The notes beneath the pieces are model-generated. The model searched no databases. It saw nothing but the letters and a program-made list of their open reading frames with translations, and was not told where the DNA came from. Below, in pieces: positions 43,481 to 64,000 of a DNA stretch of 64,000 bases (position 1 is the first letter of the stretch; each line of letters opens with the position of its first letter). Source of the stretch: Hypomesus transpacificus (lineage: Eukaryota > Chordata > Actinopteri > Osmeriformes > Osmeridae); contig NC_061082.1 in the NCBI RefSeq assembly GCF_021917145.1, forward strand, positions 16,471,682 to 16,535,681. Reading direction: 5' to 3'. A program made the position numbers and the translations under genes.

Positions 43481-46400
43481 CATCATCATCATCGTCATCA
43501 TCTGCCGCTTGTCCGGGGATCGGGTCGCGGGGGCAGCGACCTAAGCAGGGAGGCCCAGACTTCCCTCCCCCCGGCCACTTCCGCCAGCTCTTCCTGGGGG
43601 ACCCCAAGGCGTTCCCAGGCCAGCTGAGAGACATAGTCCCTCCAGCGTGTCCTGGGTCTTCCCCGGGGCCTCTTCCCAGTGGGACGTGCCCGGAACACCT
43701 CACCAGGGAGGCGTCCAGGAGGCATCCTAATCAGATGCCCGAGCCACCTCAGCTGGCTCCTCTCGACGCGGAGGAGCAGCGGTTCTACTCTGAGCCCCTC
43801 CCGGATGACCGAGCTTCTCACCCTATCTCTAAGGGAGAGCCCGGACACCCTACGGAGAAAGCTCATTTCGGCCGCTTGTATTCGCGATCTCGTTCTTTCG
43901 GTCACTACCCATAGTTCGTGACCATAGGTGAGGGTAGGAACGTAGATCGACTGGTAAATAGAGAGCTTCGCCTTTCGACTCAGCTCCTTCTTCACCACGA
44001 CGGACCGATGCAGAGCCCGCATCACTGCGGACGCCGCACCGATCCGCCTGTCGACCTCGCGCTCCATTCTTCCCTCACTCGTGAACAAGACCCCGAGATA
44101 CTTGAACTCCTCCGCTTGGTTCAGGATCTCCTCCCCGACCCGGAGATGGCACTCCACCCTTTTCCGGTCGATTACCATGGCCTCAGATTTGGAGGTGCTG
44201 ATTCGCATCCCAGCCGCTTCACATTCGGTTGCGAACCGCTCCAGTGAGAGCTGAAGGTCACGGCCCGATGAAGCCAACAGGACCACATCATCCGCAAAAA
44301 GCAGCGACCCGATCCTGAGGTCACCAAACCGGACCCCCTCAACACCCTGGCTGCGCCTAGAAATTCTGTCCATATAGGTAATGAACAGAATCGGTGACAT
44401 AGGGCAGCCCTGGCGGAGTCCAACCCTCACCGGAAACAAGTTCGACTTACTACCGGCAATGCGGACCAAACTCTGGCACCGGTCGTACAGGGACCGGACA
44501 GCCCCGATCAGGAAATCCGGTACCCCGTACTCTCGGAGCACCCCCCACATGAGCCCCCGAGGGACACGGTCGAACGCCTTTTCCAAATCCACAAAACATG
44601 TGTAGACTGGTTGGGCGAACTCCCATGTACCCTCCAGGACTCCGCGGAGGGTATAAAGCTGGTCCACTGTTCCACGGCCAGGACGAAAACCACATTGCTC
44701 CTCCTGAATCCGAGGTTCGACAATCCGACGGACCCTCCTCTCCAGGACCCCTGAATAGACTTTCCCAGGGAGGCTGAGGAGTGTGATCCCCCTAAAGTTG
44801 GAGCACACCCTCCGGTCCCCCTTTTTAAAGAGGGGAACCACCACCCCGGTCTGCCAGTCCAGAGGCACTGTCCCCGATGTCCACGCGATGTTGCAGAGTC
44901 GTGTCAACCAAGACAGCCCTACAACATCCAGAGCCTCAAGGAACTCCGGGCGGACCTCATCCACCCCAGGGGCCCTGCCACCGCGGAGCCCTTCAACCAC
45001 CTCGGCGACCTCAGCCCCAGAGATAGAAGGGCCCCCCCCGATGTCCCCAGACTCTGCCTCCACGTCGGAAAGCGTGTTGGTGGAATTAAGGAGGTCTTCG
45101 AAGTATTCCTTCCACCGATCCAGGACGTCCCCCGTCGAGGTCAGCAGCGCACCATCCCCACCGTATACAGTGTTGACAGAGCACTGCTTCCCCCTCCTGA
45201 GCCGCCGGATGGTGGTCCAGAACCTTTTTGAAGCCGTTCGGAAGTCATTCTCCATGGCCTCGCCGAACTCCTCCCATGCCCGGGTTTTTGCCTCCGCGAC
45301 CGCCAAAGCCGCGTTCCGCTTGGCCTGCCGGTACACATCAGCTGCCTCTGGAGTCCTACCAGCCAATAAAGTCCGATAGGCCTCCTTCTTCAGCTTGACG
45401 GCATCCCTCACCTCCGGAGTCCACCACCGGGTCCGAGGGTTACCGCCGCGACATGCACCGACCGCCCTGCGGCCGCAGCTCCGGTCAGCCGCTTCAACAA
45501 TGGAGGCCCGGAACATGGCCCATTCGGACTCAATGTCCCCGGCCCCCCCCGAGACATGATCGAAGCTCTCCCGGAGGTGGGAGTTGAAGCTCCTTCTGAC
45601 AGAGGGTTCCGCCAGACGTTCCCAGCAGACCCTCACATTACGTTTGGGCCTGCCAGGCCTGACCGGCGTCCTCCCCCACCATCGAAGCCAACTCACCACC
45701 AGGTGGTGATCAGTTGACAGCTCCGCCCCTCTCCTCACCCGAGTGTCCAAGACATGCGGCCCCAAGTCCGATGACACGACTACAAAGTCGATCATCGAAC
45801 TGAGACCTCGGGTGTCCTGGTGCCAGGTGCACATATGGACACCCTTATGCTTGAACATGGTGTTCGTTATGGACAAACCGTGTCTAGCACAGAAGTCCAA
45901 CAACAAAACACCACTCGGGTTCAGATCGGGGGGGCCGTTCCTCCCAATCACGCCCCTCCAGGTCTCACTGTCATTGCCCACATGAGCATTGAAGTCCCCC
46001 AGGAGGACGAGGGAATCCCCAGGAGGAGCGCTTTCCAGCACCCCCCCCAGAGACTCCAAAAAGGGTGGGTACTCTGAGCTGCCGTTTGGTGCATAAGCAC
46101 AAACGACAGTGAGGACCCGTCCCCCCACCCGAAGGCGGAGGGAGGCTACCCTCTCGTCCACCGGGGTGAACCCCAATGTACAGGCGCCGAACCGAGGGGA
46201 AACCAGTATTCCCACCCCAGCTCGACGCCTCTCACCAAGGGCAACTCCAGAGTGGAAGAGAGTCCAGCCCCTCTCAAGGAGACTGGTTCCGGAGCCCAAG
46301 CTGTGCGTCGAGGCGAGGCCGACTATATCTAGCCGGAAACTCTCTACCTCGCGCACCAGCTCAGGCTCCTTTCCCGCCAGCGAGGTGACGTTCCACGTCC

Positions 46401-46851
46401 CTAAAGCTAACTTTTGCAGCCGAGGATCGGACCGCCAAGGCCCCCGCCTTCGGCCGCCGCCCGTCTCACACTGCACCCGACCCCCATGACCCCTCCTGCG
46501 GATGGTGAGCCCACTGGAAGAGGGTCCCACGTTGTCTCTTCGGGCTGTGCCCGACCGGGCCCCATGGGAAAAGGCCCGGCCACCAGGCGCTCGCCATCGA
46601 GCCCCACCCCCGGGCCTGGCTCCAGGGGGGGGCCCCGGTGACCCGCTTCCGGGCAGGGGCAACTGAGAACCATTGTTGTATTTCTTCATGGTTGGTTTTT
46701 TGAGCCACTCTTTGTCTGGTCTTTCACCTGGAACCTGTTTGCCTTGGGTGACCCTACCAGGGGCATGAAGCCCCCGACAACATAGCTTCCAGGATCACTA
46801 GGACACGCAAACCCCTCCACCGCGGTAAGGTGGTGACTCAAGGAGGGGCAC
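43481..46851 (-). mobile_element. Near full-length RTE-clade (Rex3-like) LINE with target-site duplication
   Basis: The element runs on the minus strand. Its 5' end is near 46851, a short 5' UTR covers about 46851-46690, one ORF follows, and the 3' end is a (GAT)n-type tail at about 43481-43503. RTE elements are short LINEs ending in such simple-sequence tails rather than poly(A). An 8-bp direct repeat TCTCACGT flanks it at 43473-43480 and 46852-46859. The intact ORF and matching flanks suggest a fairly recent insertion. The name Rex3-like is from memory of fish RTE elements. Confidence 0.8.
43498..46689 (-). CDS. RTE-type retrotransposon polyprotein: endonuclease plus reverse transcriptase (1063 aa)
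   Basis: An uninterrupted 1063-residue ORF. Residues about 94-335 form an exonuclease-endonuclease-phosphatase (APE-like) domain: TWNV (N100), LLGDFNAH (D232, N234), [10 protein letters not shown] (D301) and STDHH (D327/H328). The position expected to hold the metal-binding glutamate reads VGLASTHS instead. Residues about 560-870 are the reverse transcriptase: [44 protein letters not shown] (D701), [13 protein letters not shown] and FADD (798-801). The C-terminal part includes LTYGHELW and RWLGHLIRM. The N-terminal 90 residues are rich in glycine, proline and arginine. It copies element RNA at endonuclease-nicked chromosomal DNA. This is a mobile-element protein, not a host gene. Confidence 0.9.
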
Positions 46852-46859
46852 TCTCACGT

Positions 46860-47465
46860 TTCTCAGTAATTTGGCTATGGTCTAACCTACAAGGAAATTT
46901 GAGACAACATTTAATGATACCATAATATCGTTCACACGTTTAGGGCTTATTAGTGTGACGATGTCTGTGCTCGTTTCTTGCAGTGTTGGATAACCTTAAC
47001 TACTGTAGTAAAAACAAAAACAAAACAAAAAAACATCTCTCCATGTTTAGAGAAAAAACATGTTTAAGTTTAATCAAATTGTAAAGAGAGACAGAATATC
47101 CTATGGCTAACATTTTCAACTGTCTAGGCCTAAAAAATCGTAGGCCTATATGCTATGCTGCAAAATAACCATCCACCTCATAAAAAAAAACAAGTTTATG
47201 AAAATGCCGTTCCACTATTATAAGCGATAACTGTAAGCTACCGATGCTGCCCTTTTTGAAGGGACAAAACATATAACAATGATAAAATAACAATTTCAAA
47301 ACTTTGAAATGACATTTTCGTGTTTTCAGGAATCGCATCGCATGTGGGCTAATATTGCCCCTCGATGCGCACCGTAGAATACTGATGTCAGCTCACGTGC
47401 TCATCTGGACTAGATGGTCAAATATTGATGGCCAATTAGCTTGCAAGCTAGCTAGCACAACAGAA
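46860..47465. other. 5' region of the cAR-like receptor gene
   Basis: AT-rich DNA between the RTE element and the receptor's first ATG. The frame of the ATG is open some way upstream (from about 47355), but that part lacks any family feature. No promoter motif is convincing. Confidence 0.4.
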
Positions 47466-50400
47466 ATGGGCAGTAAAGACGTACCTTTAACAAACAACAG
47501 TACACCCTGTGTATTCTTCAATACAGACTCTGAAGACTATCGATGTGTAAGTAGCTTTGTAGCTATACTGCACTAGTTGCTATTTTCTATCGGGCTTTTA
47601 AAACTGGTATTAGCCTTGTGGTAGCTGGTTTGTCGTCATTGCTACAGACAGTACAGTTTCGAACTAGCTGGTACCATAGATATCTATGGTTGGTACTAGC
47701 TTTCTGTTCATCAACACAACAGTCCACGATAACACTCAGCCAGTATGCAAGTAACGTGTGTTACTACTTACTCAGATATTGATATAATTTGCAGCTAAGA
47801 TATAGACCTTGAGAATACATCTATTGGAAAACATTGTCTTCTAGTGATCCGAACCATTGTATCTAGCTGGATTTTCTTTAAAAAACAGCCGTTTAGCGTT
47901 GTTGTTGCTTTAAAATGACTAGCTGTTCGCCATGGCCATCTGTTGCCATTGCTTAGCAAGGTACTCAGTAGTTAACAAACTTTTCTTTACGGTTAATAGA
48001 ACCTAGTTTATCAACATAAGTAGAAACATCCTAACTTGGAGTAGTTCAGTGGTTGATTCCAGTGTGGGATTGTGTAAGGTGCAGGATACAATGACACGCC
48101 TTTATCATCCAAGCATATCATAGAGCTAACCATGATTGTGTTTTTCTCTATGCTCCCGTCTTCATCACGGGAGCACTGTTTAACACCAAAACACACACAC
48201 AACTATGACCGTATGGGTAAAGCTGAATTAATTATAGCTGAAATATTAAATATCACCAGTTATAAGGCTACAGTAAATCGGAAGCCACAATGTTTATGTC
48301 AGTGAGTCCCAAAGTGAGGTTTTTGTTTTTGGGTGGGTCAAAGTTGTTGTTAGCTTACAGCAACGGCCTAGTTTACCCAGGAATGCTGCAGCAATGCTGT
48401 CCAGCCCATGGCCCACGAACTACTGTGTCTGAGAAGCTGTAAGAAGCTTGCATCACTCCACCTAATTACCAGCCACTCACCTAACCTACTTTTAAGCTTG
48501 AACAGTCAACCTAGATCAAGATTCATCCATTTACAGAAAAGCCTGAATCTGTCAAACAGTTTGGTTTGTCTGATCATTTCCAATGTAATTTCCAAGAAGC
48601 TGGTGCTAGAGCACATGTGTCAAACTCAAGGCCTGCGGGGCAGATGTGGCCCGCCACGTCATTTTATGTGGCCTGTGGAAGCTTAAATGGTGAATTGAAA
48701 TAAGTGTACGCTGCTTTACAGTGCTGTATTGCTTTTTCATTGACCATAAACTACATCTCTCACAATGCATTTTGATGAGGAGATGGACCATCTGGCTTGT
48801 TATCAGTGCTCAGTTCAAAAGCCTGCATTTCTACTTTTTAGTAATTTTACAAGTAATCGTTCTTCCCACATTTACTTTCTGCAGTCTGACTACAGTAGCC
48901 TACAGTCATCTGCGTAGCCAATTCCCACTGTCTCCAAAATGTGCGTAGGCCTATGGATGGGTCAGAGTTTACTTGGAGGACCGCACACTCTCCCGTCAAG
49001 TTTGTTTTTTATAAATCACAACCTTTGCGTGGGAAGTATTAATATACTGAATTATCATTCATGAGGTGCTTTGCATTGACCATTTATGGTTAAAAAGGGG
49101 CGTGTTCAGGGTGTGGTAAAATGCTGATTTGCCTATGCAAACTTGTGGGTAATCTGTGATTTATAAAGGGAACATTGCTTCCAGGTGTGCGTACGCACTG
49201 TTTTGGACCGGTCACTCACTGTATCAACTCACAGCAGACACATACTAAGTAGTGAGCTTTGAGTTTTGTAAATAAATAAAAACCGGTTGGACCATAACGA
49301 TTTTTTGCGCAAATGCTCCCAAATATATTTTGAGGTCGCACAGACACAATTTGGGGAGTGTGTGCTATCAAAACGGTTGTCGTTTCAAGGCCTATATGGA
49401 ACGACATCTTCATCATGAGTGGTTAGTAAATGGACTGATGCCCTGTGAGGGATGTGTCTCCTCAGGTGGTGATCCTTGCAGTAAAACGAGCTACGGGCAC
49501 CTTCTCTCTGATAGGATGGTGAGCCTCAGCAAATGTGACCAATTTTATTAGCTAAGAGGACATAAATAATTTTGTGTCCCACTAACTTCCTCTCCATTTA
49601 TTTCTCTCTCTCTCCTCTCTCTCTCCTCTCTCCTCTCTCTCAGCTTCTTCATGTTATTTGTCATCTGGCTGCTACGGCGTTATCACTCTTTGGCCCAGGT
49701 AATTATCATGTTTTTCGAAGCAGTTTGAGTATTGGAACATTTACCTTTGTGACTGAAGAAAGTTAAATTGAGCTGAACACATCTGACATTCATTCAAACT
49801 TTTTATTAAGGTGTTCCAATGAAATAAATTATGGTTGCTATTGACTTATGGCTGGTTTTGTGTAACGATAGTGAACTGGTTCCTGTTACTCAGTCTCTGT
49901 CTGCACTCAATCATGCAATTGAATGCTTCAAATGAAGTGTGTTGTGTAAGCTTAGCCTACATGACTGTGTACATGCTTCAGTGCAGTTGCGGGTGTGTAG
50001 GCTACGTGCTTGTATCTGTTTCTGTGTGTGTGTGTGTGTGTGCCTGTGCACTTGTTTTTCAAGCGTGTGTGTGTGTGAAACAGAAAGAGAAATACCTGTC
50101 CTGCCAGCCAGTCAGGTCTAGTGGTGCCGGCTATCATCTAATCTGAAGTACATGACAGATTACAGTGAAACCCTGCCTGGATCCTGTTATCTCTGGACCA
50201 GTTTAGACCAGATCATGACATGTTGCAAGTGTCACTACTTTCCTCTCTATTTTTTTCTTCTCTTCTCTGTTTTAATTCATATAATCTCAAATTAATATAC
50301 TGTATTTGTTTACATGAAACAATGTTGCCAATGGCTGTCCACAGTGAAGGGACATGCAATTATGACAAAATCACAGCAAGCATAACTCTAAAGGTCAACC

Positions 50401-50618
50401 AAATATGTAAAAGAAAAAATAACAAACGTGGATACTGTCACCTCACTGTTCTTCATGTTTTGTCATACTCCTTGAGACACTGTGTCTCTCTGTCTCTCTT
50501 TCTCTTTTTATCTCTATTCTGTCTCTTCAACCTGTTTCTGCAGAAAATGATTCTCAGTCTGACAATAGCGGCCTTCTTTGACAGCATAGCATATGTCATG
50601 GTGAGTCATTTATTTTCA

Positions 50619-50660
<42 letters not shown>

Positions 50661-53600
50661 GCAAGCATGCATGATGTGTTTTCTCTTCTTCCTTCCCCAG
50701 AGTGAGTCCCACCCTGAAGGCAGTTTATGCAACTTCCAGGCTTGGTGGCTCACTTACTTTGGTAAGACTCCTGTAACATTCATTATTACACACACACTCA
50801 AACCCAAATACTTCTGAAAGAACCGAATGACACCAGATGAACTGCAAATAAGATTTACAAACATTATCTGTCTTACACACCATATTCAAGGACTTTTATT
50901 ACAGGAAACAAAATTACATTTTTTATGAAAAGAACATGTTCCCCACAGTTAAAACTGGAGGAGGTTTCTTGTCTGCCTCTGGCACTGGAAGCCTTTATTG
51001 TGTGCGTGAAGAGAAGAGTAATGTTGAACCCAATACTGGAAAGCTGGGTCTCAGCCAAAGGTCATAGGTATTCCAGCAGGGCAGTGACCCCCCAAAACAC
51101 TTTCAGAACTGTTCTTACGGGGCCCGCATTCCAGTTCTGTTGGTGTATGACAAAAGGAGAGAAAAGGAGATGCTGGATGAGACAGGGAGGGAGTCTATGG
51201 AGTGAGTTTCAGATGAACATGGAGCAGGGGTGTTCGTGTCGGTTTGTGCTGATGTCAGACCTGGCTCCAGGAGGAGTTCGAGGCAGGAGGATTATGTAAC
51301 GTGTTTCTGTTATCACACCAGCTGTCATCGGGAGGCGCAGCAGAAGATAACTTCAGTTTCTGCCACCGCTCAGTACACAGACAGACAATAGGAGTGTTAT
51401 TGCTTCGCTGGGTGTGTTGAATTGTGTGTGTGTGTCAGTGTGTCCATCTCCTTAGAGACAGGATGGGTTCACTGTGTGTAGCTTGGGGAATCCATCACTC
51501 TGACAGTCAGCACTGCCAGCCCTGTCACATATAATAACACACACACACACACACACACAACCACAATGGAGGAGTCCGGGACATAAGACGCTTTGGAGTG
51601 TGGCACTACCCATGGGAATTATATTGTACATTGTTGTCTTACTGTCTCTCTACTTCACTCTTTTTCTCTCCATCTCTCTCACTCTCCTCTTGTTGTCTTC
51701 TTTTCCTCTGTTTTCTCCATTGTCATCTTTGGTCTCTCCTTGCACCCCCTCCCCTGTTTCCCCAAAGTTCATTATTATCTCTCTCTCTGCTCCCCCTCTC
51801 ATTCATCACCATCAGCCACAGGTTTCCTTTATATTACTGCTGAATGGGGCCTCATTTATCATAGAGGTTACACACACATGTTAACTATACACAAATGTAA
51901 CCAGAGATGTGTAAGCTAACCTTGATATCCCTCCCCATCCCTCCTCCCTCCGTTCTTGTCTCTGCCTTCCTACATCCCTTCGCTCTCCCTCCTTTCCTCT
52001 TGTCGGTCTCTCCATCCATGCCTCCCCTCTCTTCATTCCTCCTCCTTCGTTCTCCTCTCCTTGTAACCCTCCTCTCCTCCCGCTCCGTCCCTCCATCCCC
52101 CCTCCTGTTTTCTCCTTAGACTGGAGTGCCTTGGCCTGGGTCTGCCTCATCACCTTTAACCTCTACCTCAACCTGGTCAGGGAGATGAGCACCAACAGAT
52201 TTGAGATGTGAGTCCAACGCTGACCTCTGGCCACCATCAATTATATTACTCAATTAATCTGTTACCAGGTTAAAGGTCGGGTCATTTAGACTCTCGAGGC
52301 TTTGGAAATTCTATGATCTGGGTGTGTCCGTCTTGTGTTGTTTCAGGTCACCCAACACTGTCATTGAGAAGGTAGAATGGTTGTGTGTTTGTTGCGTGTC
52401 TGTGTTTTCGTATTCTTTTTTTCTTCCGCTCAGTATTCATGACTATATAATAGATCCATCTACATACTGCGCCTGTCTGTGTGAGTGTCTGTGTGTCTAG
52501 GTAGCCGTGGTAAAGTGCCAGTGGGGTGTCCTGTGGGTGTTTCCTTTATTGATTAGCAATAACCTGAGCCATACTAACTGTATAACTCTGAGGGGACAGT
52601 TTTATTGAAGCCCAGCTTAGAATCATTTTCCCGCCTGTGCCTCCATCCCGCCCTCCATAGCTCTCTTTTTCTTCTCTCCTTCCTTCTCTTTCTCCATTCT
52701 GTCTGTCTCTCTCCCTTTTCTCTCTCCTTCCTTCTTTTCTCTGCCCTCACTTTGTCCTTCCGCTCTCTCCCTTTGCTTTGTCACTCCTCCCTTTCTTCCC
52801 CATTGCTTCAAATCTGAACCACCTCTAATTGGTGCCAAATAGCTTGGAAGGAGAAAGAGGCAGAGGATAAAAAAGGAGGGGGGGTGTGGGGGTCACGCTA
52901 GAACTCGTTTTTCATTGGCTGTGGCTCTGCATATTTGTGTGTGTGTGTGTGTGTGTAGACACACAAATACATCTCTACATCGTTTGACTCACTCTCCACC
53001 ACTCTGGATGAAAAGCAGGGTCTGAATAGAACAGGAAATGGAAGACAGACGTTGAGGTCAGAGAATAAGAAAAAAGGGATGCAGGCAGGAAGGAAGGAGG
53101 GATAAATTGAAATAGGCGTTTGGAAATATGACTCTGGAAAGGTGAAGCAGAGGGGTGGTAGAGGATGAGTGAAAGTGATAGGACGATGGAGCCTGGGCAA
53201 ATAATGATAAAAGAGCAGGAATGAAGAATTGTGTGTGTGTGTGTGTGTGTGTGTGCACGCTAGAGCGTAGCAGGCCTGCTGTGCCTCATTAAGTCCATAT
53301 TGTGCTGCACACCACGTCATCGCCCTTGCCGAGCGCTACGTGCGACGTGTGTGTGATGCATCGATTTCCTGACAAGCTCCACCCCCCCCCCCCCCCCACA
53401 CACACACACCGTCCACATGCTGTGTGGAGTGGCAGTGTCGATTTCACTGTTTGTGTCCTCTTCCCCTTTCCCCCCTTTCTACTCCCCTCTAGATCTGTAT
53501 CTCTCTCCTCCCCTTATTCCCTCCCTCTTCTCTTTTTGCGCTTCTCAATCTCTCGCTTACTCGCTGTTCACAGCTCAGTGACCCCCTAGCTATCGTTTTC

Positions 53601-56600
53601 TGTTTAGACACCTCCTGACAGACAATCACTCTCTCCCTGCCCATCTCTCTCTCCCTCTCGCTCACTCTCTTGTATGCGCCGTCTCGCTCTCCCGTCCTTC
53701 ACTCTTCTACTGTTCATCACAGAAGGACAGGAAGCGTGCTGAGAGAGACAGAGGAAAGGAAAGGGAAGAGACGAGAAGTGAGACAGTACCAGAGGAGAAA
53801 CAGAGAGGCGATGATAGTGTTAGAGAAAGGCAGACATATATACATATGTATTTTGATGCTCCTTATTGAGAAGAACAATAAAGAACATGTATTTAAGAAA
53901 TGTAAAGTATGTCATTTTATTCTGAAATACTGTAGGACCCAGGTTGAATTAAAGTGTCCTCAACTCGAAGCCCTTCAAACCAAACCCAGAGAAAGCACAC
54001 TTCCATTCAGTAAACACTTAACTACTCTAGCCTACTCTCCAACCAGAGTGGCACAGAAAGACAGACGAGATGGATATCCGCCAAAACTGTAGTGATGCAA
54101 CCGAGAGTGACCCTCGTTCATGAATCTAACTCAGAAACGAGCGCAGATCCATGTGCAGAAATTGTCTAACGACGGGACTCATGAATCATTTGTATCTCGA
54201 TACTAACAATGGCCGCGTTTCCCAGATTCGTAAAAAAATTGTTAAGCTTCTTAGGAGCGTTCTAAGATAGCTCTAGAACGCTCTTAGAACGCTCGTAAGA
54301 AGCTCTTAGCGTTAAGAGTTTCTTAACGAATCTGGGAAATGCAGCCAATGTAAGTTTGATCTGTAGGCGTTAATTGATAGGTGGCTGAAAATTACTGTAA
54401 TTTAAATATCATGCGACATAGCTTATCATGAGATAAGCTAAATAAGTACAGTAAGTAAGTGATGGCTTCATATGCTTAGATGCTATTCAGAATATTTGGT
54501 CAAATAACAATTGTCCAACTCAGCCAGATTTACTGTGCTGCTCTGCAAGTCCACGCCAATTCAAGAAATAACGTACACAACTTGAGGCTTGACGTGACAT
54601 TTGAGCGTAGCCTCCGCTCTCGCCCAGATTGATAAACTCCCAGTTTTGTGTGGAAATGACCTAATGCCCTGTTTCCTGTCGTTTCATGAATGAGGGCTAG
54701 TGTGTGCTTGTGAATGTCAATGTGTTTGCCTCAGGTATTAGATCATGTATTGGCAGGGAGTCCGTGTCTATTGACCGCACTTAGGTCAGGTGACAGTAGG
54801 TCTTAGAGTGTATTGACCATGAAATCGCGTGGTCCATAAAGTATTGACCAGCAGCCCCTCACTTGAGCAGAGGCTGTCTGTAGGTCTATGTGGTCTCTCT
54901 CTCTCCCTCCATTTCACCTCTCCTAACCATCTCTCTCCCCATTGTGCCTTGCCTATAACCATCTCTCTCCCTGTCCCCCCTTTTCCAGACTGTACCACGC
55001 AATGGCATGGGGGGTGCCACTGGTCATGGCCACCCTGCCCCTCCTCAGGGGGTACTATGGTCCTGCTGGAGCCTGGTGGTAAGTAGCCAATCACCTTGGT
55101 CAGGGTCAACCAACTATCGCCAGGATCACTGAACAACTGTCATTTTATAGCAACAGTGTGTTTTGAGATGCTGGCTCGTCCAATGTGAGAAAGATGGATC
55201 AGAATTTGTGAGTTTATTGTTTTTATATAGTCTTAATAGAATTTTAAATATATATTTCAACCTTTTGTTTTATTCAAATGGTCAGCCCTGATCCTTAATA
55301 TCCAGTTTTGGGTGAAGAACCCGTGTAATTTGCCCATCCCTTGTTTTAAATTAGTTGAGGAAAGGAGAGGATTAAAGGAAAGGAAGTTATGTTGTACATC
55401 AGAAATGAAACAGAGACTTGATCTCAGGACCCCCCCCCACCCCAAATTTTTGTTTCTGAGTTAGCTGGGTTTGATTTCTGTCTGCCTTCTGAACTCTCTC
55501 TCTCTTCTGTCTCCCTCCAGCTGGATCACAGACAGTCACGTCGCGTGGAGATTTGGAATGTGAGTGCAACCTCACAGAACGGATAGAAAGATGAGAGAGA
55601 GGAGTGTGGGGACGGAGGAAGGGCGATCCGTGCTTGCAGCACTTCCAGTCTATCAGTACAGCTAAACAAGCAAATGCAGGCACTTCGCTCGCTCTCTGTT
55701 TCTCACCCACACACCTCTCTGTATGTAGCAGAGCGAACAGCCTGTTTAGAGGCTGCTTAAAAACCCTGTGAATGTATTAATCGGGGCTCAATCATCCTAT
55801 GTTGGGGATGGACGGTCTCGGGGGGCTATAGTTGCATATCGTATGAAAGATAAGAGGGGGAGTGCACGAGCGATGAGATGCGGTTTCGTCTTCTGTTCCC
55901 AGACTCAGTTTCTGTCTTTATCAGCGCTCTGCCAAGCGCAGAGGCGGAAAGAGAAAGAGAAAATATGAGGGAGAAGGGGACGAGGGAGATTTGTCATTTC
56001 AGAGGTGAAAGCACGAAGGAGAACCAGAGCAAAAGAGAGCAGTAAGGAGCAAGAGCAGCAAGGAGGGAAGGCATAAAGGAAAGAAATGACTCATCACCTA
56101 ATTTATTTTTCTATTCTGTGTGAGTCCAAACCTGTTTGTCCGCACTGAGAGGAACAGGATCTGTGCGCTTCTCAAACATGTTCAAAATATGTGTGTCCAA
56201 GACACCCTCACTGCCCTGCTGTTTGACCCTCCCTCCCTCCCTCTCTGTTTTTCATCCTATCATTGTAGTTTATCCCCCCCCTCCCTTGTAATCTTTCACC
56301 CCTCTACTAATCTGTAATACGTCTCCCCTCTTTCCATCCAACCCTGTCTCCCCCTTTCCTATGTTATATACATGTTTGTCAAAATATATTTTAGCGATCC
56401 CTCCTTTCATTTTTATTTCTTTAATGTGTGGCCCGGCTAGAGTGGTTGAACAGGTTGGTCATAATCTCTGTCCTGCCCCACCAACAGTCTAGGTAAAGAG
56501 GGTTCAGACGATACGAGAGCAGGGATGGAGTCTCTATGGCGATGAATTAGCCATCAGCCACTCCTCTTTCACTCTTTTTCTCTTTTCTCTGTTTCCATCT

Positions 56601-59600
56601 CTCACTCCTATCTCCCTTCCTCTCAGAACGTTAATTCAGAGGATTTCATTCATATTCGATGCTTTTCATACAGAGCAGCACCAGAAGTGTGTGTGTGCAT
56701 CAACGTTCCTCTTTGTGTCAGTCTCTCTCCCTCACTCCTTTTCTCTTTTTGTGTTTCTTTTGCTCATCAACATAGTATGTCTGTTTTTCACTATGATTCC
56801 TGTCTCTCCTTCTATTTCTCCCATCTCATCAGTCTTTCTCTCCTCACCCTCTCACCCCTTTTTATCACACCGCTTCCTGCCCCTCCGTCTCCACGTCTTT
56901 CTTCCCTCCTTCTTTCTTCTTTCCTTATTCCTCCTTTCATCCCTCTGCACCTTTTCTCCCTCTCTCTCTGTCTCTCTCTCGGTCTCTCTCAGTGCTCAGT
57001 TTCAGAGCAGAGCAAACTGTAATGGCTGATCATTATCATGCTAATTACATCACTTTGTAGCTGCCGCCTGGTATCCCTCTGCCCCCACGCCCCCACGTCT
57101 CTGTTTCTCCCTCCTGCCTCTCTTCTTTCGCTCTACCCTTTGTGCACCTTCTACTCCTCGTGCCTTCCACTTCTCCCTCCTCCTCTTTCTCCCTCTACTC
57201 ACTTGTCTCGCTCCTTCCTCCTCCCAGTCATCCTTCTTCTTCCTCACAACTCTCCCTCATTTTCCTCCGTCCTTTCATCCCTCCCCCTCCTCCCCCCATC
57301 ATTTTTGGGAGTCGTGGGGGTGTAATTGGAAGCCCTCTATTCTGATCAGCATGTGGTTATCACACAGGGTGAGTGCTAGAGAACTGTATTGGGATTGGGG
57401 TCCCACGGGACCCACTGCAAATGTCGTGGGAGCAGCCAGTTTTAACTTTGCGCGGGTGGGCAAAATTTTTTATGCGGGTCCCGAGATTTAGCTTCCCAGA
57501 AGGATGGAGTCAACTTATGTAGTTGGGGAAAATGTTATTATGCACGAGAACAACCTTTCTCAACCCCTCCTTGCAGGGCAGGGCAACCCTTTCCCTGCAT
57601 GTTTTAGATGTTTCCCTCTTCCAGCACACCTAATTCAAATGAATTGTTATCCCCCTTCTGCTGAGCTTCATAACGACCCATTCATGTAAAACGGGTGTGT
57701 TGGAAGAGGGGAACGTCTGCAACATGCAGGGCAGGGGGTAACGAGGACCAGGATAGAGAGAGGCTACACTAGAACAGTTGGCAACTTTATTACTGACAGG
57801 TATGCATTTCTTTGTTAATACGACACAGTCAAATAACATGTTTTCCCTGTGGAACAGGAGAAGGCACAAAATCAATGGAACTTGAAGGCGTGGATGATCA
57901 GAATGTTTGTGGGTGTGGGCGGGAGTGGACACACACACTGTGGGAGTGGACACACACATTGTGGGAGTGGACAGACACATTGTGGGAGTGGACACACACA
58001 TTGTGGGAGTGGCCACAGACACTGTGGGAGTGGACAGACACATTGTGGGAGTAGACAGACACATTGTGGGAGTGGACAGACACATTGTGGGAGTGGACAC
58101 ACACACTGTGGGGGTGGACAGACACATTGTGGGAGTGGAAATGCATATGTGGGAGTGGACAGACACATTGTGGGAGTGGACACACACACTGTGGGAGTGG
58201 ACAGACACATTGTGGGAGTGGACAGACACATTGTGGGAGTGGACACACACACTGTGGGGGTGGACAGACACATTGTGGGAGTGGACAGACACATTGTGGG
58301 AGTAGACACACACACTGTGGGGGTGGACAGACACATTGTGGCAGTGGAAATGCATATGTGGGAGTGGACAGACACATTGTGGGAGTGGACAGACACATTG
58401 TGAGAGTGGACACACACACTGTGGGAGTGGACACACACACTATGGGAGTGGACAGACACACTGTGGGGGTGGACAGACACATTGTGGGAGTGGACAGACA
58501 CATTGTGGGAGTGGAAATGCATATGTGGGAGTGGACAGACACATTGTGGGAGTGGACAGACACATTTTGGGAGTGGACAGACACATTTTGGGAGTGGACA
58601 GACACATTGTGGGAGTGGACACACATTGTGGGAGTGGACACACACATTGTGGGAGTGGACACACATTGTGGGAGTGGACAGACACATTGTGGGAGTGGAC
58701 ACACATTGTGGGAGTCAACACACATTGTGGGAGTGGACAGACACATTGTGGGAGTCGACACACATTGTGGGAGTGGGCAGTAATGGTCAGATATCCAGAA
58801 GCAGCAAAGTTAAGAACCCCCTCACAGGGCTCTAGTGAGTTGAGTCAGGCAGGGAGGTATTGAGGTGTTTTGGAGTGGAGGTCTCTTGGAGTTTTCTTCT
58901 TCCCATTATATATTTTTGCTGATTCACTTTCAGTGCGTTGAAATCGCTACATCGTATCACTTGCACAGACCCGAGCCTCAAGTGTGCTTGTTATCATGGA
59001 CAACAGGGCCACAAGTCTAACCCAATCTAGTTCTGTTACATTTGAGAAGGCAGACATTTCTACAGACAATATTTGTAGCAACTTGCATCGTGTTTTAGGA
59101 CTTTTTTTAAATGACCAGTTGAGCAATCTGAGGATTATTACTGAGAAGTTAAACACTCTGCTTTACTTTCCCCCTCTCTCCATCCCTTCTTCTCCTTCTC
59201 TCTCCTTTTTTGCTCCCTGTCCTCCATACAGATGGTACGTGCCACTCTTCACCCTCATCCTTCTCATGATCTGCTGCTACACCAGGATCATCTACGTGGC
59301 CAATGAGAGGGTGAGCTCAGCCTTTCCTTCTCATTGACAACCAATCAACATCAGAGTTTACCCTCTGTCCGAATCCCAGAGAACACACAGAAGTGCTAGT
59401 AGAACAAGGTGTTGCTAAGCAATTTCCTTGGGTTCAAGCATTACACTTCACCCTTACTTGCTTATTATTACAATTTGTTTGAAGCCTACATATAGTTGAT
59501 TGGACTCCTGAGTCATTGCTAATGGAATCAGTCCTGCCTGATCCTGAACGGAATGACCTGTTAATATAAAATCTTCTAGAACCTGCCAGGCTTGACAGAG

Positions 59601-61912
59601 GACCAGGGCGTAACCACTGTGATAACGGGTAAACTTGTTCTCTGCTTGACAACAGACAGGAACTTTTATTTACCAATCAGGTAACTTCAAACTGGAATTT
59701 GCTGGAAGAGAATATAAATGACCCACAGAACGAAACTGTAGTTCAAGTCATAAATTACCTCTTGCCCCCCCCCCCCCTCTTTTCTCTCTCTGTGCCTCTC
59801 TTTCTTTCTCCCTTTTTTCTTTCTCTCTCTCTTTCTCATACACTCTCTGTCTCCTCTTGTTCTCAATCTCCTCCTCTCTCTCTGGGCGTGTAGGTGTGTG
59901 TTGCCACAGGCAGCATTCCAGAAGGTGTGTGTTATCACCCAGAGCCAAGAGATGCATTCCAGAGAATTCACATAGTTGTCATACTTCCGGCTTTGAGAAC
60001 ACATTGAGTAACACCCCAGTCACTGGCAGGATGGGGTGTGTGTTGGCGGGTGTGTGAGGCCTTTACATAAAAGTTGGACCTTGATTTGAAAGGCTCACAG
60101 AGACACAGACTCATAAAGAAAGGGACAGAGAGAGGCAGACGGATATAGAGGGACAATAACTCACTTCCCTTTCATCATATGTGTGATAGAGAATACATGA
60201 ATATGGTCGCTTGGCAAACCTGCTTGACTCATTCTGCTCACTGGTGTTTTTCTCTCCCACTGTCGCTCTTTAGCTTTCCTTCCTTGTTCTCCCCTCTCTC
60301 TCTCTCTGCCCCCCCCCCCCTCTCCCTCTATCATATTTATGAAGAGCTCAAGTCTTATCTCCTCACAGCTGCAGGCTGTCTTCCTTAAAAGACATTTCAA
60401 AAATCTTTGAGAGGAGATGGTGATGGGTAGAAGAAAGGGAGTAGGGTGGGGGGCCGAGCAAAGAGGCTGGGGTGCGGGGGAGGGGAGGGAGTCAAACTGG
60501 GGGTGAGGGGGGAGGGCAGGGAGTCAAACTGGGGGTGAGGGGGGAGGGCAGGGAGTCAAACTGGGGGTGAGGGGGGAGGGCAGGGAGTCAAACTGGGGGT
60601 GCGGGGGAGGGCAGGGAGTCAAACTGGGGGTGAGGGGGGAGGGCAGGGAGTCAAACTGGGGGTGCGGGGGAGGGAGTCAAACTGGGGGTGAGGGGGGAGG
60701 GCAGGGAGTCAAACTGGGGGTGCGGGGGAGGGCAGGGAGTCAAACTGGGGGTGAGAGGGGAGGGCAGGGAGTCAAACTGGGGGTGCGGGGGAGGGAGTCA
60801 AACTGGGGGTGAGGGGGGAGGGCAGGGAGTCAAACTGGGGGTGAGGGGGGAGGGCAGGGAGTCAAACTGGGGGTGCGGGGGAGGGCAGGGAGTCAAACTG
60901 GGGGTGAGGGGGGAGGGCAGGGAGTCAAACTGGGGGTGCGGGGGAGGGCAGGGAGTCAAACTGGGGGTGAGAAATATTGGCTTCGGAGGGGATGCAGAAA
61001 ACAGTGCAACTCATGCGGCTCATTTATTACAATTCATTTAATTCATTTAAAGTTTTGTGGATAAATCTTTCAATGAAAGCTGTATTTTTAATAGTATTCA
61101 GAAGACTTGACTTGGTAGTAGCACAAACGCACACGTTCACAGACACACGTTCAAAGACACAGACAAAACCACAGTCACAGACTGACAATAACAAGTGCAA
61201 AAGGAACCACAGCAACGTCTAGTCGACAAATTGTTGAACGTTTCGTTTTGAACGAAAACCATTTTCCTGTTTGTGTCAACATTTGTCAGTGACCAGAGTC
61301 TAACCTAAGTCTGTGTGTGTCTTCATAGATGCAGTCCTGGTTTGGAACGTTCAACCCAGAAAGGGAGAGGAGAAAGGTAAGGATGCTCCTGAGTTTATAT
61401 CCAAACCCTAAACAGCTATTCAGGTCCACCAAGGTTGTTATAAGAATATAGTTCTATCTACACAAACACAAGTACACACACACACACTTAAACGCACACA
61501 CTCTGACACACATACTGCGACCCGTGGATCAGAGCATGTGTAGGATTAGCTGCTGGGGCCATGCTGGGCAGTCCTATCTCCCTGTAGGGAGACCCCACAA
61601 TACCCCACCTCAGTCAGGGATCTGTGTTTGTGTTGCTAGTTTCCATCCCTTCTTCCTCCCCTGGCTCCTTCTTTTTAGAGAGAAAGATGGGGGTGAGGAG
61701 GGAGAAAAAGACAAGGGGGGACGGGGGTGGGTTAAGAAAACATGATGGCTCTGGCTTGATTTAGTCACGGTTGGTGTTTTAATGTGACAGTTGTGTGTGG
61801 GGGTGCTGGGTCATGGTTGGGCCTGAGGGAATACGGAGGGAGGGCAAGGTAGATGCTGCCTTCTTGTGGCAGTTGTATTAACTGCAGGTTGATCTGAGGT
61901 AACCCATCCTCC

Positions 61913-62010
<98 letters not shown>

Positions 62011-64000
62011 GCAGCACTCCCCTCCTGCTCGTGTGCTAATTGCTCTGTGTGTCTTTGTGTGAATAAATCAGCAAACCTCATTTACCATTTGTCCATCTTT
62101 CCCATCTCCCCTCTCTGACCCAAGCCCCCTCACGTTTTCTATTTTTCTCTAAGTCTGTCTCTTTCTCTCTACCACTTCCACCCACACGGGCCCAAACGCA
62201 CAGATAAAAACACAAACACACAGTATGAATAAAGCAGCAAGCTAGGTTCATGGACATGAATATTTGTGTGTTTATGCACGCGCCGGGATGCTTTAAAACA
62301 ACATTCCCCCTCCTCTCCTGCCCGTTGATGCTTTCTATGCACTGCGTGTGTTTGTACGTGTGTGTGTGTGTGTGCACCAGCATGTGCAAACCACACAAAT
62401 ACTATCCTCGCCGGTTGTGTGACCACTGTTCCCGTTGGCGATTTCCCTCGCCTCACCACAGCCGCCCTCATCCCTCAGGTACGCTGTTCAACGTTGTCTC
62501 CCTCACCCGCACTCACGTTTTCTGTGAGGTTTCTGTTCCATTGTTGGACTCACACACACACACACCATACGTACGTATATTGCCAGTGTTCACTGACTGT
62601 CATGGAGGTTATCGGTCGCCCTGCTGTGACACACTGTGTGACAAGGGGCACACACAAACACTTTTACTCTACACTCTTTTACTCACACACACACACACGT
62701 AGAAACACGCACGTTTGGCACACAATCCTCATCAAACAAACCCCGTGCACAGGTCAGGCACAGGGTTCTTGAAAGTGAGGCTGGAAGGCCGAACACACAC
62801 ACACACTTTGGCATAGTCTTTGTTGGTTAGAGTGCTGTCTGACGTCAGTAAACAGTATGGGGCTCGTTCTGAATGTTCACATGCATGTTTGGTTGCCTTT
62901 CAGCAGAAGCTTTGCTGTGTGTGTGTGGGTGTGCACATAGGATATGCTATTCATTAATGATGTCGTTATCTTGAACAGACAGACGTTATTTTAGTCTTTG
63001 TCTGGAAGGCATCGACCGTTAGACCACAGGCACAAGTATCATGGCCACATACCACTGCGTTAGTCTGTGTGCATTCAAGCCCCGATGAGTCGCTCACAAA
63101 CCGGGCTCTCGGCTAGAAAGCAGTAACGCTGATTACCGTCGCTAATGTGCGTCATTAACAAAAGGACGCGGAACCTGCCGTGCATAATTGCCGTTTCATT
63201 ACCCCCCGCTGCCAAGGAGCACGAGGCCTCTGACACGAGAGGACCGTGATGAAAACCTTGAGCCTCATTTCTTCAACCCTCCCCTTTCATCTCTATTCTC
63301 CCCACTTTTGCATCCCCCCCCTCTCCACTGTGTCTTCCCAACGACCAGAGAAGCAGTGGTCAAACTCATTCTTCAGACAGGTTTTGAACAATTGGCCGAT
63401 ATAATAAAATAAAAATAAAAATATGGATCTTCATAATTGCATAATTAATTAAAAGATTATGTAAACTATAGGTTATCCACAGCACAAAACTACACGTGCG
63501 CCAAGATAAAACCCCATGTGGACTCACTCTTGTGGTTTTCATTTGAATTGTTTAAACTCCGGTGCCGTGGCAAGCAACCCCCATGCTTTCCTTGTGACTA
63601 ATTAATTTCCATATTGTGGCTGGGGGGGGGGGGGGGGGGGGAGTCGTGGTTAAGGTTTTTAGAGCATGCGGGTATGCGTGTATGTGTTTCCGCGCTGTGA
63701 AATCACAGGCGCTGGCTCCGCAACCCTTTTCAGGGAAAGGAGGGGGAAAAAACACTTGAACAGAGAGGAAATCAATTCCGGCCCGCGCTCTGTCTATTCC
63801 ACTTGCGGGAAATGGATAACGGTCCTCTCCCATGTGCGACAACGCTGTACGTGTGCCTGCCTGCTTGTGTGCGTGCGTGCGCACTAACTCCCATTATTAG
63901 TAAGTGATTATTCCCGCCTCTTTTTCCATTCAGGTGTCCTTGGCTAAGGAGACAAAGCATTTGAAGTGGTACCCTTCCGTGTATCTTCTGGTATCTCTGT
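47466..64000 (+). CDS. Seven-transmembrane receptor of the cAMP-receptor-like (Dictyostelium cAR/Crl) family, partial
   Basis: Exons: 47466-47546, 49466-49518, 49644-49698, 50544-50600, 50701-50761, 52120-52207, 54989-55078, 55521-55559, 59232-59310, 61329-61376, 63934-beyond 64000. All junction phases agree, giving 239 residues so far. The order fits a GPCR: a short N-terminus with an NNST glycosylation site; TM1 (TGTFSLIGCFFMLFVIWLL); RRYHSLAQ loop; TM2 (ILSLTIAAFFDSIAYVM); TM3 (WSALAWVCLITFNLYLNLV); TM4 (YHAMAWGVPLVMATLPLL); second extracellular loop GAWCWI; TM5 (WYVPLFTLILLMICCY); third intracellular loop FNPERERRK; start of TM6 (WYPSVYLLVSL). SLCNF before TM3 and AWCWI supply the usual disulphide pair. 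The WCWI...RFGxWYxPLF layout is that of Dictyostelium cAMP receptors. Ligand and coupling are unknown. TM7 and the tail lie right of the window. Confidence 0.85.
47547..49465 (+). other. Receptor intron 1 with transposon debris
   Basis: It contains 'catgtgtcaaactcaaggcc' (about 48614), resembling the end of hAT elements. A possible foldback element at 49009-49166 has 12-bp perfect inverted ends. No coding exon is recognised. Confidence 0.45.
49009..49166. repeat. Possible foldback element with 12-bp inverted ends
   Basis: ttataaatcaca at 49009-49020 and tgtgatttataa at 49155-49166 are perfect inverse copies 134 bp apart. No clear target duplication is seen, and the family is unknown. Confidence 0.35.
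50762..52119 (+). other. Receptor intron
   Basis: Intron between the TM2-TM3 loop and TM3 exons. It holds (AC)n runs (about 51538-51559) and long pyrimidine-rich tracts (51640-51830, 51930-52115). No exon is recognised inside. Confidence 0.5.
52208..54988 (+). other. Receptor intron with simple repeats and a MITE
   Basis: It holds pyrimidine-rich runs, (TG)n tracts at about 52936-52958 and 53230-53254, a C run with (AC)n at about 53382-53410, and a foldback MITE at 54211-54346. No coding sequence is recognised. Confidence 0.5.
54211..54346. mobile_element. Foldback MITE, 136 bp
   Basis: The left end GGCCGCGTTTCCCAGATTCG and the inverted right end GGCTGCATTTCCCAGATTCG match at 18 of 20 positions. 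Most of the interior is also palindromic (runs of 'taagaagctctta' and 'gcgttctaag' types). A 3-bp repeat aat flanks it at 54208-54210 and 54347-54349. A 3-bp duplication hints at PIF/Harbinger, but the usual TWA target is not seen. Confidence 0.65.
55560..59231 (+). other. Receptor intron (3.7 kb) with minisatellite
   Basis: The largest visible receptor intron. It is rich in pyrimidine tracts (56560-57300) and contains the 21-bp minisatellite at 57921-58779. No exon is recognised within it. Confidence 0.55.
57921..58779 (+). repeat. 21-bp minisatellite, about 41 units, with higher-order spacing
   Basis: The unit is gggagtgga, then cagacacattgt or cacacacactgt. Because 21 is divisible by 3 and the unit lacks stops, long spurious frames run on both strands. 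Rare 20-bp marker units (gggagtggaaatgcatatgt, or ggcagtgg at the second) occur at 58131, 58340 and 58507, spaced 209 and 167 bp, i.e. exactly ten and eight units. Shortened 19-bp units (one CA lost) cluster at the right end, from about 58612. Confidence 0.95.
59311..61328 (+). other. Receptor intron with G-rich minisatellite
   Basis: Intron between the TM5 exon and the FNPERERRK exon. It includes a C run with a pyrimidine tract (about 59764-59880) and the G-rich tandem repeat at 60487-60970. No exon is recognised. Confidence 0.55.
60487..60970 (+). repeat. G-rich minisatellite (units of about 26-32 bp)
   Basis: About 16 copies of gggagtcaaactgggggtg followed by a variable G-rich stretch (aggggggagggca 32 bp, cgggggagggca 31 bp, or the short cgggggaggg form). 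Each unit has at least four G-runs of three or more on the + strand, which is also the transcribed RNA sense. Confidence 0.95.
61377..63933 (+). other. Receptor intron with long (TG)n
   Basis: It contains (TG)47 at 61915-62008, further (TG)/(AC) tracts (62357-62374, 62550-62570, 62685-62698) and a G run at about 63622-63641. The next receptor exon starts at 63934. No other exon is recognised. Confidence 0.5.
61915..62008 (+). repeat. (TG)47 microsatellite
   Basis: An uninterrupted TG run of 94 bp in a receptor intron. Frames encoding HTHT or VCVC strings across it are artefacts. Confidence 0.97.

Follow-up and report, generated by a model that had tools for sequence, protein, structure and literature searches.

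Whether a fish genome keeps a complete receptor of the family named after the cyclic AMP (cAMP) receptors of Dictyostelium is the question raised by the locus described here. The window, that is, the whole stretch of DNA analysed, comprises 64,000 nucleotides of Hypomesus transpacificus (C23:16471682-16535681 of a genome assembly of 437 Mb in 376 contigs). From position 47466 to its end, the forward strand carries 11 exons, called by hand in a first-pass annotation and attributed to a seven-transmembrane receptor of the slime-mould cAR/Crl type. The gene was followed beyond the window to its stop codon, and its sequence makes it very probable that this is an intact-looking, protein-coding vertebrate gene for a G-protein-coupled receptor (GPCR) of class E, the cAMP-receptor or Dicty_CAR family, distinct from GPR157.

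Structure and completion of the receptor gene

When the boundaries of the 11 exons were re-read (Table 1), all of them lay where the first-pass annotation had placed them, every intron in the window ran from GT to AG and the phases agreed, so that the exons join in one frame free of stop codons. This frame encodes 239 residues, reproducing the length that had been proposed, and the two motifs previously highlighted, the AWCWI loop and the RFGxWYxPLF entry into transmembrane segment (TM) 5, were found at residues 160-164 and, as RFGIWYVPLF, at residues 172-181. The start codon is provisional. The ATG at 47466 stands in the context CAGAAATGGG, and a second in-frame ATG lies at 47385, 81 bases upstream and with no intervening stop, which would lengthen the N-terminus by 27 residues, the next upstream in-frame stop being found at 47310.

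As the first-pass annotation had proposed extending the gene past position 64000 for TM7, 39.4 kb beginning 2 kb before the window end were scanned for TM7-like coding sequence. Candidates were scored against the TM7 pieces of cAR1, GCR1 and GPR157. Exon 12 came first on the forward strand with a score of 18.0, the runner-up on the same strand reaching 8.3 and the best candidate on the reverse strand 4.3. This exon, which supplies the end of TM6 together with TM7, has a good acceptor and the phase that exon 11 requires, and the junction completes Arg245 (...FPLIN-R-LHN...). The full gene thus consists of 13 exons and 12 GT-AG introns, with an open frame of 1,053 nucleotides encoding 350 residues. 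Seven hydropathy peaks are found in this protein, with 36 residues ahead of the first and 73 behind the last. Since exon 12 was chosen partly by its likeness to the superfamily, the gain in full-length score reported below is to some degree a product of that choice, on which the phase and splice sites of the exon do not depend.

Short exons amid simple repeats could also be expected of a decayed or chance assembly, in which exon-like pieces form no working gene. Such an origin is scarcely credible here, considering that 12 of 12 introns are GT-AG, that 1,053 nucleotides remain open, that seven hydrophobic segments are encoded and that the protein matches a receptor profile at E 1.3e-19. In addition, 10 phase-consistent decoy chains were built from other open stretches between AG and GT of the same region, five on each strand, and Dicty_CAR or any other GPCR family was matched at E <= 1 by none of them, with weak unrelated matches in two (best E 0.036). 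The forward decoys avoided exons 2-10 but could use exons 1 and 11, and many pieces recur among the decoys of a given strand, so that these represent fewer than 10 independent trials.

Family placement and rival identities

In hmmscan searches, PF05462 (Dicty_CAR) was the best family for the 239 residues encoded in the window (63.7 bits, E 2.1e-17, against a cut-off of 21 bits), with Git3 far behind at 0.07. It was also the best for the full 350 residues (71 bits, E 1.3e-19), followed by GPR_Gpa2_C with 30.4 bits. The same profile gave 583.6 bits with cAR1, 56.4 with plant GCR1 and 40.5 with human GPR157, the receptor therefore scoring above GCR1. The attribution to a slime-mould cAR/Crl-type receptor with seven transmembrane segments was borne out by this ranking and by the hydropathy peaks, and no other GPCR class took first place. 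Neither 7tm_1 nor 7tm_2 of Pfam matched the full-length receptor at E <= 1. The rhodopsin class, which the first-pass annotation had also set aside, is rejected on the missing 7tm_1 match and on NLY and NAFVF standing in place of D/ERY and NPxxY. The adhesion/secretin class (7tm_2) is ruled out by profile. However, cAR1, GCR1 and GPR157 all match 7tm_2, so that the missing 7tm_2 match is no mark of a cAMP receptor by itself, and it is the ranking of the profiles that differs.

According to a 2012 survey, an NxY in TM3 replaces D/ERY in cAMP receptors (PMC3251606), and this triplet is present as N116-L117-Y118. A cysteine in each of the first two outer loops, which the same survey gives as a cAMP-receptor feature common to the Rhodopsin family (PMC3251606), is found as Cys92 and Cys162. 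The class E layout is described as seven transmembrane segments with short N- and C-termini (PMC12716839), and the receptor fits it by hydropathy.

The nearest well-known vertebrate relative is GPR157, which did not figure among the alternatives of the first-pass annotation. Located in cilia and coupled to Gq, this receptor carries the WCW loop as well, and that the gene described here should be its orthologue is extremely improbable. The two proteins do have the WCW[I/V] of outer loop 2 in common, their homology is clear (local score 150 and 60/238 identities with the GPR157 of the same genome; 68/246 with human GPR157), and GPR157 passes the Dicty_CAR cut-off too. However, the genome holds a separate GPR157 gene at C18:2679352-2682443, in 4 matched stretches against the 13 exons of the receptor. 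In the genome search with human GPR157 these stretches were 54, 64, 59 and 47% identical, with E down to 1.7e-34; of the 10 matches in all, the other six were weak, none better than E 0.075. The motifs that a 2025 survey assigns to GPR157 are LLxxLS[LVI]xD in TM2, WCW[IVL] in outer loop 2 and QGxxNxIxF in TM7 (PMC12716839). All three occur in the genome's own GPR157 (LLVFLSIAD, WCWV and QGAANCIMF), whereas the receptor has one, WCWI, with MILSLTIAA and HGLANAFVF at the places of the other two. Since the WCW loop is also found in cAR1, it is not diagnostic of GPR157. Moreover, the Pfam order of the genome's GPR157 is 7tm_2 (44.9 bits), Frizzled (33.9) and, in third place, Dicty_CAR (30.9), in contrast to the receptor, in which Dicty_CAR comes first and 7tm_2 is unlisted at E <= 1. 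Identity with GPR157 was therefore rejected, given a separate orthologue with its own motifs and another best Pfam family.

A second vertebrate candidate is TMEM116, a little-studied multi-exon human protein and possible remote superfamily relative, of which the receptor could be the fish form. A short stretch covering TM6 and TM7 is identical at 17 of 42 positions, and human TMEM116 has a weak match to GPR_Gpa2_C (E 0.0055, below the cut-off). Nevertheless, the overall likeness (score 52, z 3.7) is far below orthologue level, for which GPR157, with 47-64% identity to its human counterpart in the matched stretches, provides a yardstick; TMEM116 against cAR1 gave 60 (z 4.8), and TMEM116 showed no Dicty_CAR match at E <= 1. 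Human TMEM116 also lies beside ERP29 on 12q24 and not between MID1IP1 and BCOR, which counts against this identity as well. ERP29, sought as a marker of TMEM116, was found neither by its family, for which the controls were also empty, nor by its protein sequence, and this search was uninformative. Taken together, a fish TMEM116 is very unlikely.

Placement in class E was further examined by direct comparison. Local alignment scores of the receptor were 220 with cAR1, 209 with GCR1, 150 with the genome's own GPR157 and 144 with human GPR157, and the genome's GPR157 scored 126 against cAR1. Several observations weigh against this placement. Percent identities are similar, with 27.7% for cAR1 (62/224), 27.6% for human GPR157, 25.2% for the genome's own GPR157 and 22.6% for GCR1 (57/252), so that the families are told apart solely by scores, motifs and profile ranking. 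In a tree of five sequences, the receptor and cAR1 were separated from GCR1 and GPR157 with a low bootstrap support of 67%. The grouping of GCR1 with GPR157 agrees with a letter entitled 'Is GCR1 the GPR157 of plants?' (PMC11843928). The TM7 of the receptor reads N274-A-F-V-F278, with Phe where the motif NS(A)xxY, given in one survey as a cAMP-receptor feature (PMC3251606), has Tyr. The sequences defining the Dicty_CAR profile are stated to overlap with other GPCR families (PMC10445921), and GPR157 likewise exceeds its cut-off, though not as best family. The 7tm_2 profile is matched by cAR1 (35.3 bits), GCR1 (34.1) and human GPR157 (48.4). The matches in PDB were remote adhesion GPCRs (E about 1e-4).

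With the receptor read as a member of class E, a mechanism may be sketched from the anatomy of the family. The protein would span the membrane, its N-terminus short, glycosylated and facing outward. Outer loop 2, with its WCWI, would be held over the helix bundle by a disulphide between Cys92 and Cys162, and a small ligand could bind in the pocket under this loop. Movement of TM3, which carries the NxY, and of TM6 would then activate a heterotrimeric G protein contacted by the second and third inner loops. Desensitisation may involve the acidic tail and the Ser and Thr residues that it contains. An activating change of cAR1 near the TM3 NxY aligns to the residue beside Asn116; it was dropped, its name not occurring among the literature matches listed. 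Most likely, the receptor would be an orphan class E member signalling via a G protein, for which 'cAMP receptor' is a family name only. Even for the Dictyostelium receptors, the precise cAMP site is described as yet to be experimentally identified (PMC12716839), and whether 'the latter set', taken here as the Crl members, binds cAMP is called unknown (PMC10445921). An unlikely reading, offered as a speculation, is that a functional class E receptor for extracellular cAMP or a close nucleotide persists in fish, a vertebrate counterpart of the slime-mould chemoattractant system that was lost toward mammals from between MID1IP1 and BCOR.

Neighbourhood, repeats and copy number

Along the contig, the order of genes is TSPAN7, MID1IP1-like, receptor, BCOR-like and ATP6AP2. 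The second of these was read as MID1IP1(-like) from its Spot_14 family match. For the large exon of the BCOR-like gene, Pfam gave nothing at E <= 1, and a piece of this exon that resembles the BCL6-binding segment had no PDB match; the assignment to BCOR was therefore made from the PUFD, BCOR and ankyrin domains further along. In human Xp11.4, TSPAN7, MID1IP1, BCOR and ATP6AP2 follow in the same order, with no such receptor known between them. Because the flanking genes match this order, the receptor gene was probably at this spot in the bony-vertebrate ancestor and was later lost on the mammalian lineage. Together with GPR157, these neighbours mark the genome as a vertebrate one, and its small size fits a ray-finned fish.

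Table 1. Receptor exons, repeats and neighbouring features (window numbering, continued past 64000)
Feature	Position	Strand	Content or match
Exon 1	47466..47546	+	predicted extracellular N-terminus MGSKDVPLTNNSTPCVFFNTDSEDYRC; N-glycosylation-type NNST at residues 10-13
Exon 2	49466..49518	+	TM1 start; GT..AG; phase in 0, out 2
Exon 3	49644..49698	+	TM1 end and inner loop 1; donor gtaatt
Exon 4	50544..50600	+	TM2
Exon 5	50701..50761	+	outer loop 1 with Cys92; TM3 start
Exon 6	52120..52207	+	TM3 with NxY (N116-L117-Y118); inner loop 2 with RFE (129-131)
Exon 7	54989..55078	+	TM4; outer loop 2 start
Exon 8	55521..55559	+	outer loop 2, CWITDSHVAWRFG, with Cys162
Exon 9	59232..59310	+	TM5 (WYVPLF...)
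Exon 10	61329..61376	+	inner loop 3
Exon 11	63934..64016	+	TM6 start; last 16 bases beyond window end (64000)
Exon 12	75624-75771 (C23:16547305-16547452)	+	TM6 end, TM7
Exon 13	77302-77472 (C23:16548983-16549153)	+	C-terminal tail, 56 codons, stop
Nested palindrome	54202-54355		intron between exons 6 and 7
Minisatellite	57921-58780		21-base unit, ~42 copies
Minisatellite	60469-60971		32-base unit, ~16 copies
LINE-type element	43498-46794	-	single open frame of 1,098 codons; endonuclease and reverse transcriptase domains
Tandem array	124290 to 130800 (C23:16595971-16602481)		110-codon frame in each unit
Tetraspanin-7 (TSPAN7)			PDB match, E 9.9e-31
MID1IP1(-like)			Spot_14 family, E 9.9e-60
BCOR-type gene			PUFD E 6e-35; BCOR region E 4.9e-8; ankyrin repeats
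Renin receptor/ATP6AP2			E 1.4e-31
Other contig neighbours			SLAIN-family exons; BTB-Kelch protein; Ras-family GTPase

Several repeats accompany these genes. The two minisatellites of Table 1 are intronic to the receptor gene, and the palindrome, imperfect and about 154 bases long, has nested arms of 44 and 30 nucleotides that are 82% and 87% complementary, resembling a small foldback transposon. The LINE-type (long interspersed nuclear element) sequence sits between the MID1IP1-like gene and receptor exon 1. Downstream of ATP6AP2, a direct array was found in which a unit bearing one and the same 110-codon frame recurs every 847-864 bases, in at least 8 copies and reaching the end of the DNA examined; it was not listed by Tandem Repeats Finder, which was run at periods of up to 500 bases on part of the array region.

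Regarding copy number, a genome search at E <= 10 with the protein encoded in the window yielded 11 matches. Ten of these fell on the receptor gene and covered 10 of the 11 exons in the window, exon 2 being unlisted. The eleventh, on C18 (E 0.14, 36% over 42 residues, with an internal stop), reads as chance. No second copy was seen in this search, which a strongly diverged copy could escape. A scan of the whole genome with PF05462 returned nothing, and its 14 controls were equally empty, which makes it uninformative; exons of 13-57 residues are probably too short for the profile. In bacterial and archaeal genomes and viral contigs, no relatives of the receptor were confirmed, as expected for a vertebrate gene.

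The published record and comparison with known systems

Relatives of the receptor have been described in other animals. In a study of 2008, Danio rerio XP_001332705 is described as related to the Ciona member at 42% identity (PMC2396169), and 'cyclic AMP receptor-like proteins' of fish and amphibia are reported as BLAST matches to GCR1 (PMC11843928, 2025). These are vertebrate relatives within the family, considered here by their published description only. Furthermore, 14 family members are reported in a sponge (PMC4302439). On the other hand, the cAMP-receptor family is listed in two surveys as one that vertebrates have lost (PMC3251606, 2012; PMC12716839, 2025). A vertebrate member is thus no first sighting, and yet a complete, intact-looking one, as predicted here, contradicts these statements. 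It would surprise a specialist who holds the family to be absent from vertebrates, though not a reader of fish annotations. Among the literature matches listed on the family, its rivals and cAR1, no work on the function of a vertebrate member was found. The first-pass interpretation is supported as regards the family placement and less so as regards novelty, fish and amphibian members being already in databases. With its predicted 350 residues, the receptor could be expressed and de-orphanised as a complete protein, and the fixed neighbourhood allows the loss of the receptor to be dated in other vertebrates. It is also suggested that mammal-centred GPCR catalogues can miss ancient receptors still present in fish.

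Compared with cAR1 and the cAR/Crl family of Dictyostelium, the receptor has the same best profile family, the same W-C-W-I loop and the same RFG and YxP entering TM5. Further features common to it and cAR1 are the [NS]xY of TM3, the RFE of inner loop 2 and an NR[IL] closing TM6. It differs in that 62 of 224 aligned positions are identical, that its gene is split over 13 exons and that its tail is acidic, unlike that of cAR1, which is rich in Ser and Asn. The plant receptor GCR1 of Arabidopsis resembles it in local score (209), in NR[IL]H at TM6 and in YxPL at TM5, but has TLH in TM3 where the receptor has NLY, is a plant protein and matches 7tm_2 too. As for GPR157, both have seven transmembrane segments and an outer loop 2 containing WCW[I/V/L]; it is a distant homologue at a similar percent identity. 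However, GPR157 lacks the TM3 NxY, the TM5 YxP and the TM6 NR, all present in the receptor, and has LLxxLSxxD and QGxxNxIxF, both absent from the receptor, with 7tm_2 as its best Pfam family. The YxP entering TM5 and the NR[IL] ending TM6 are accordingly common to the receptor, cAR1 and GCR1 and not found in GPR157.
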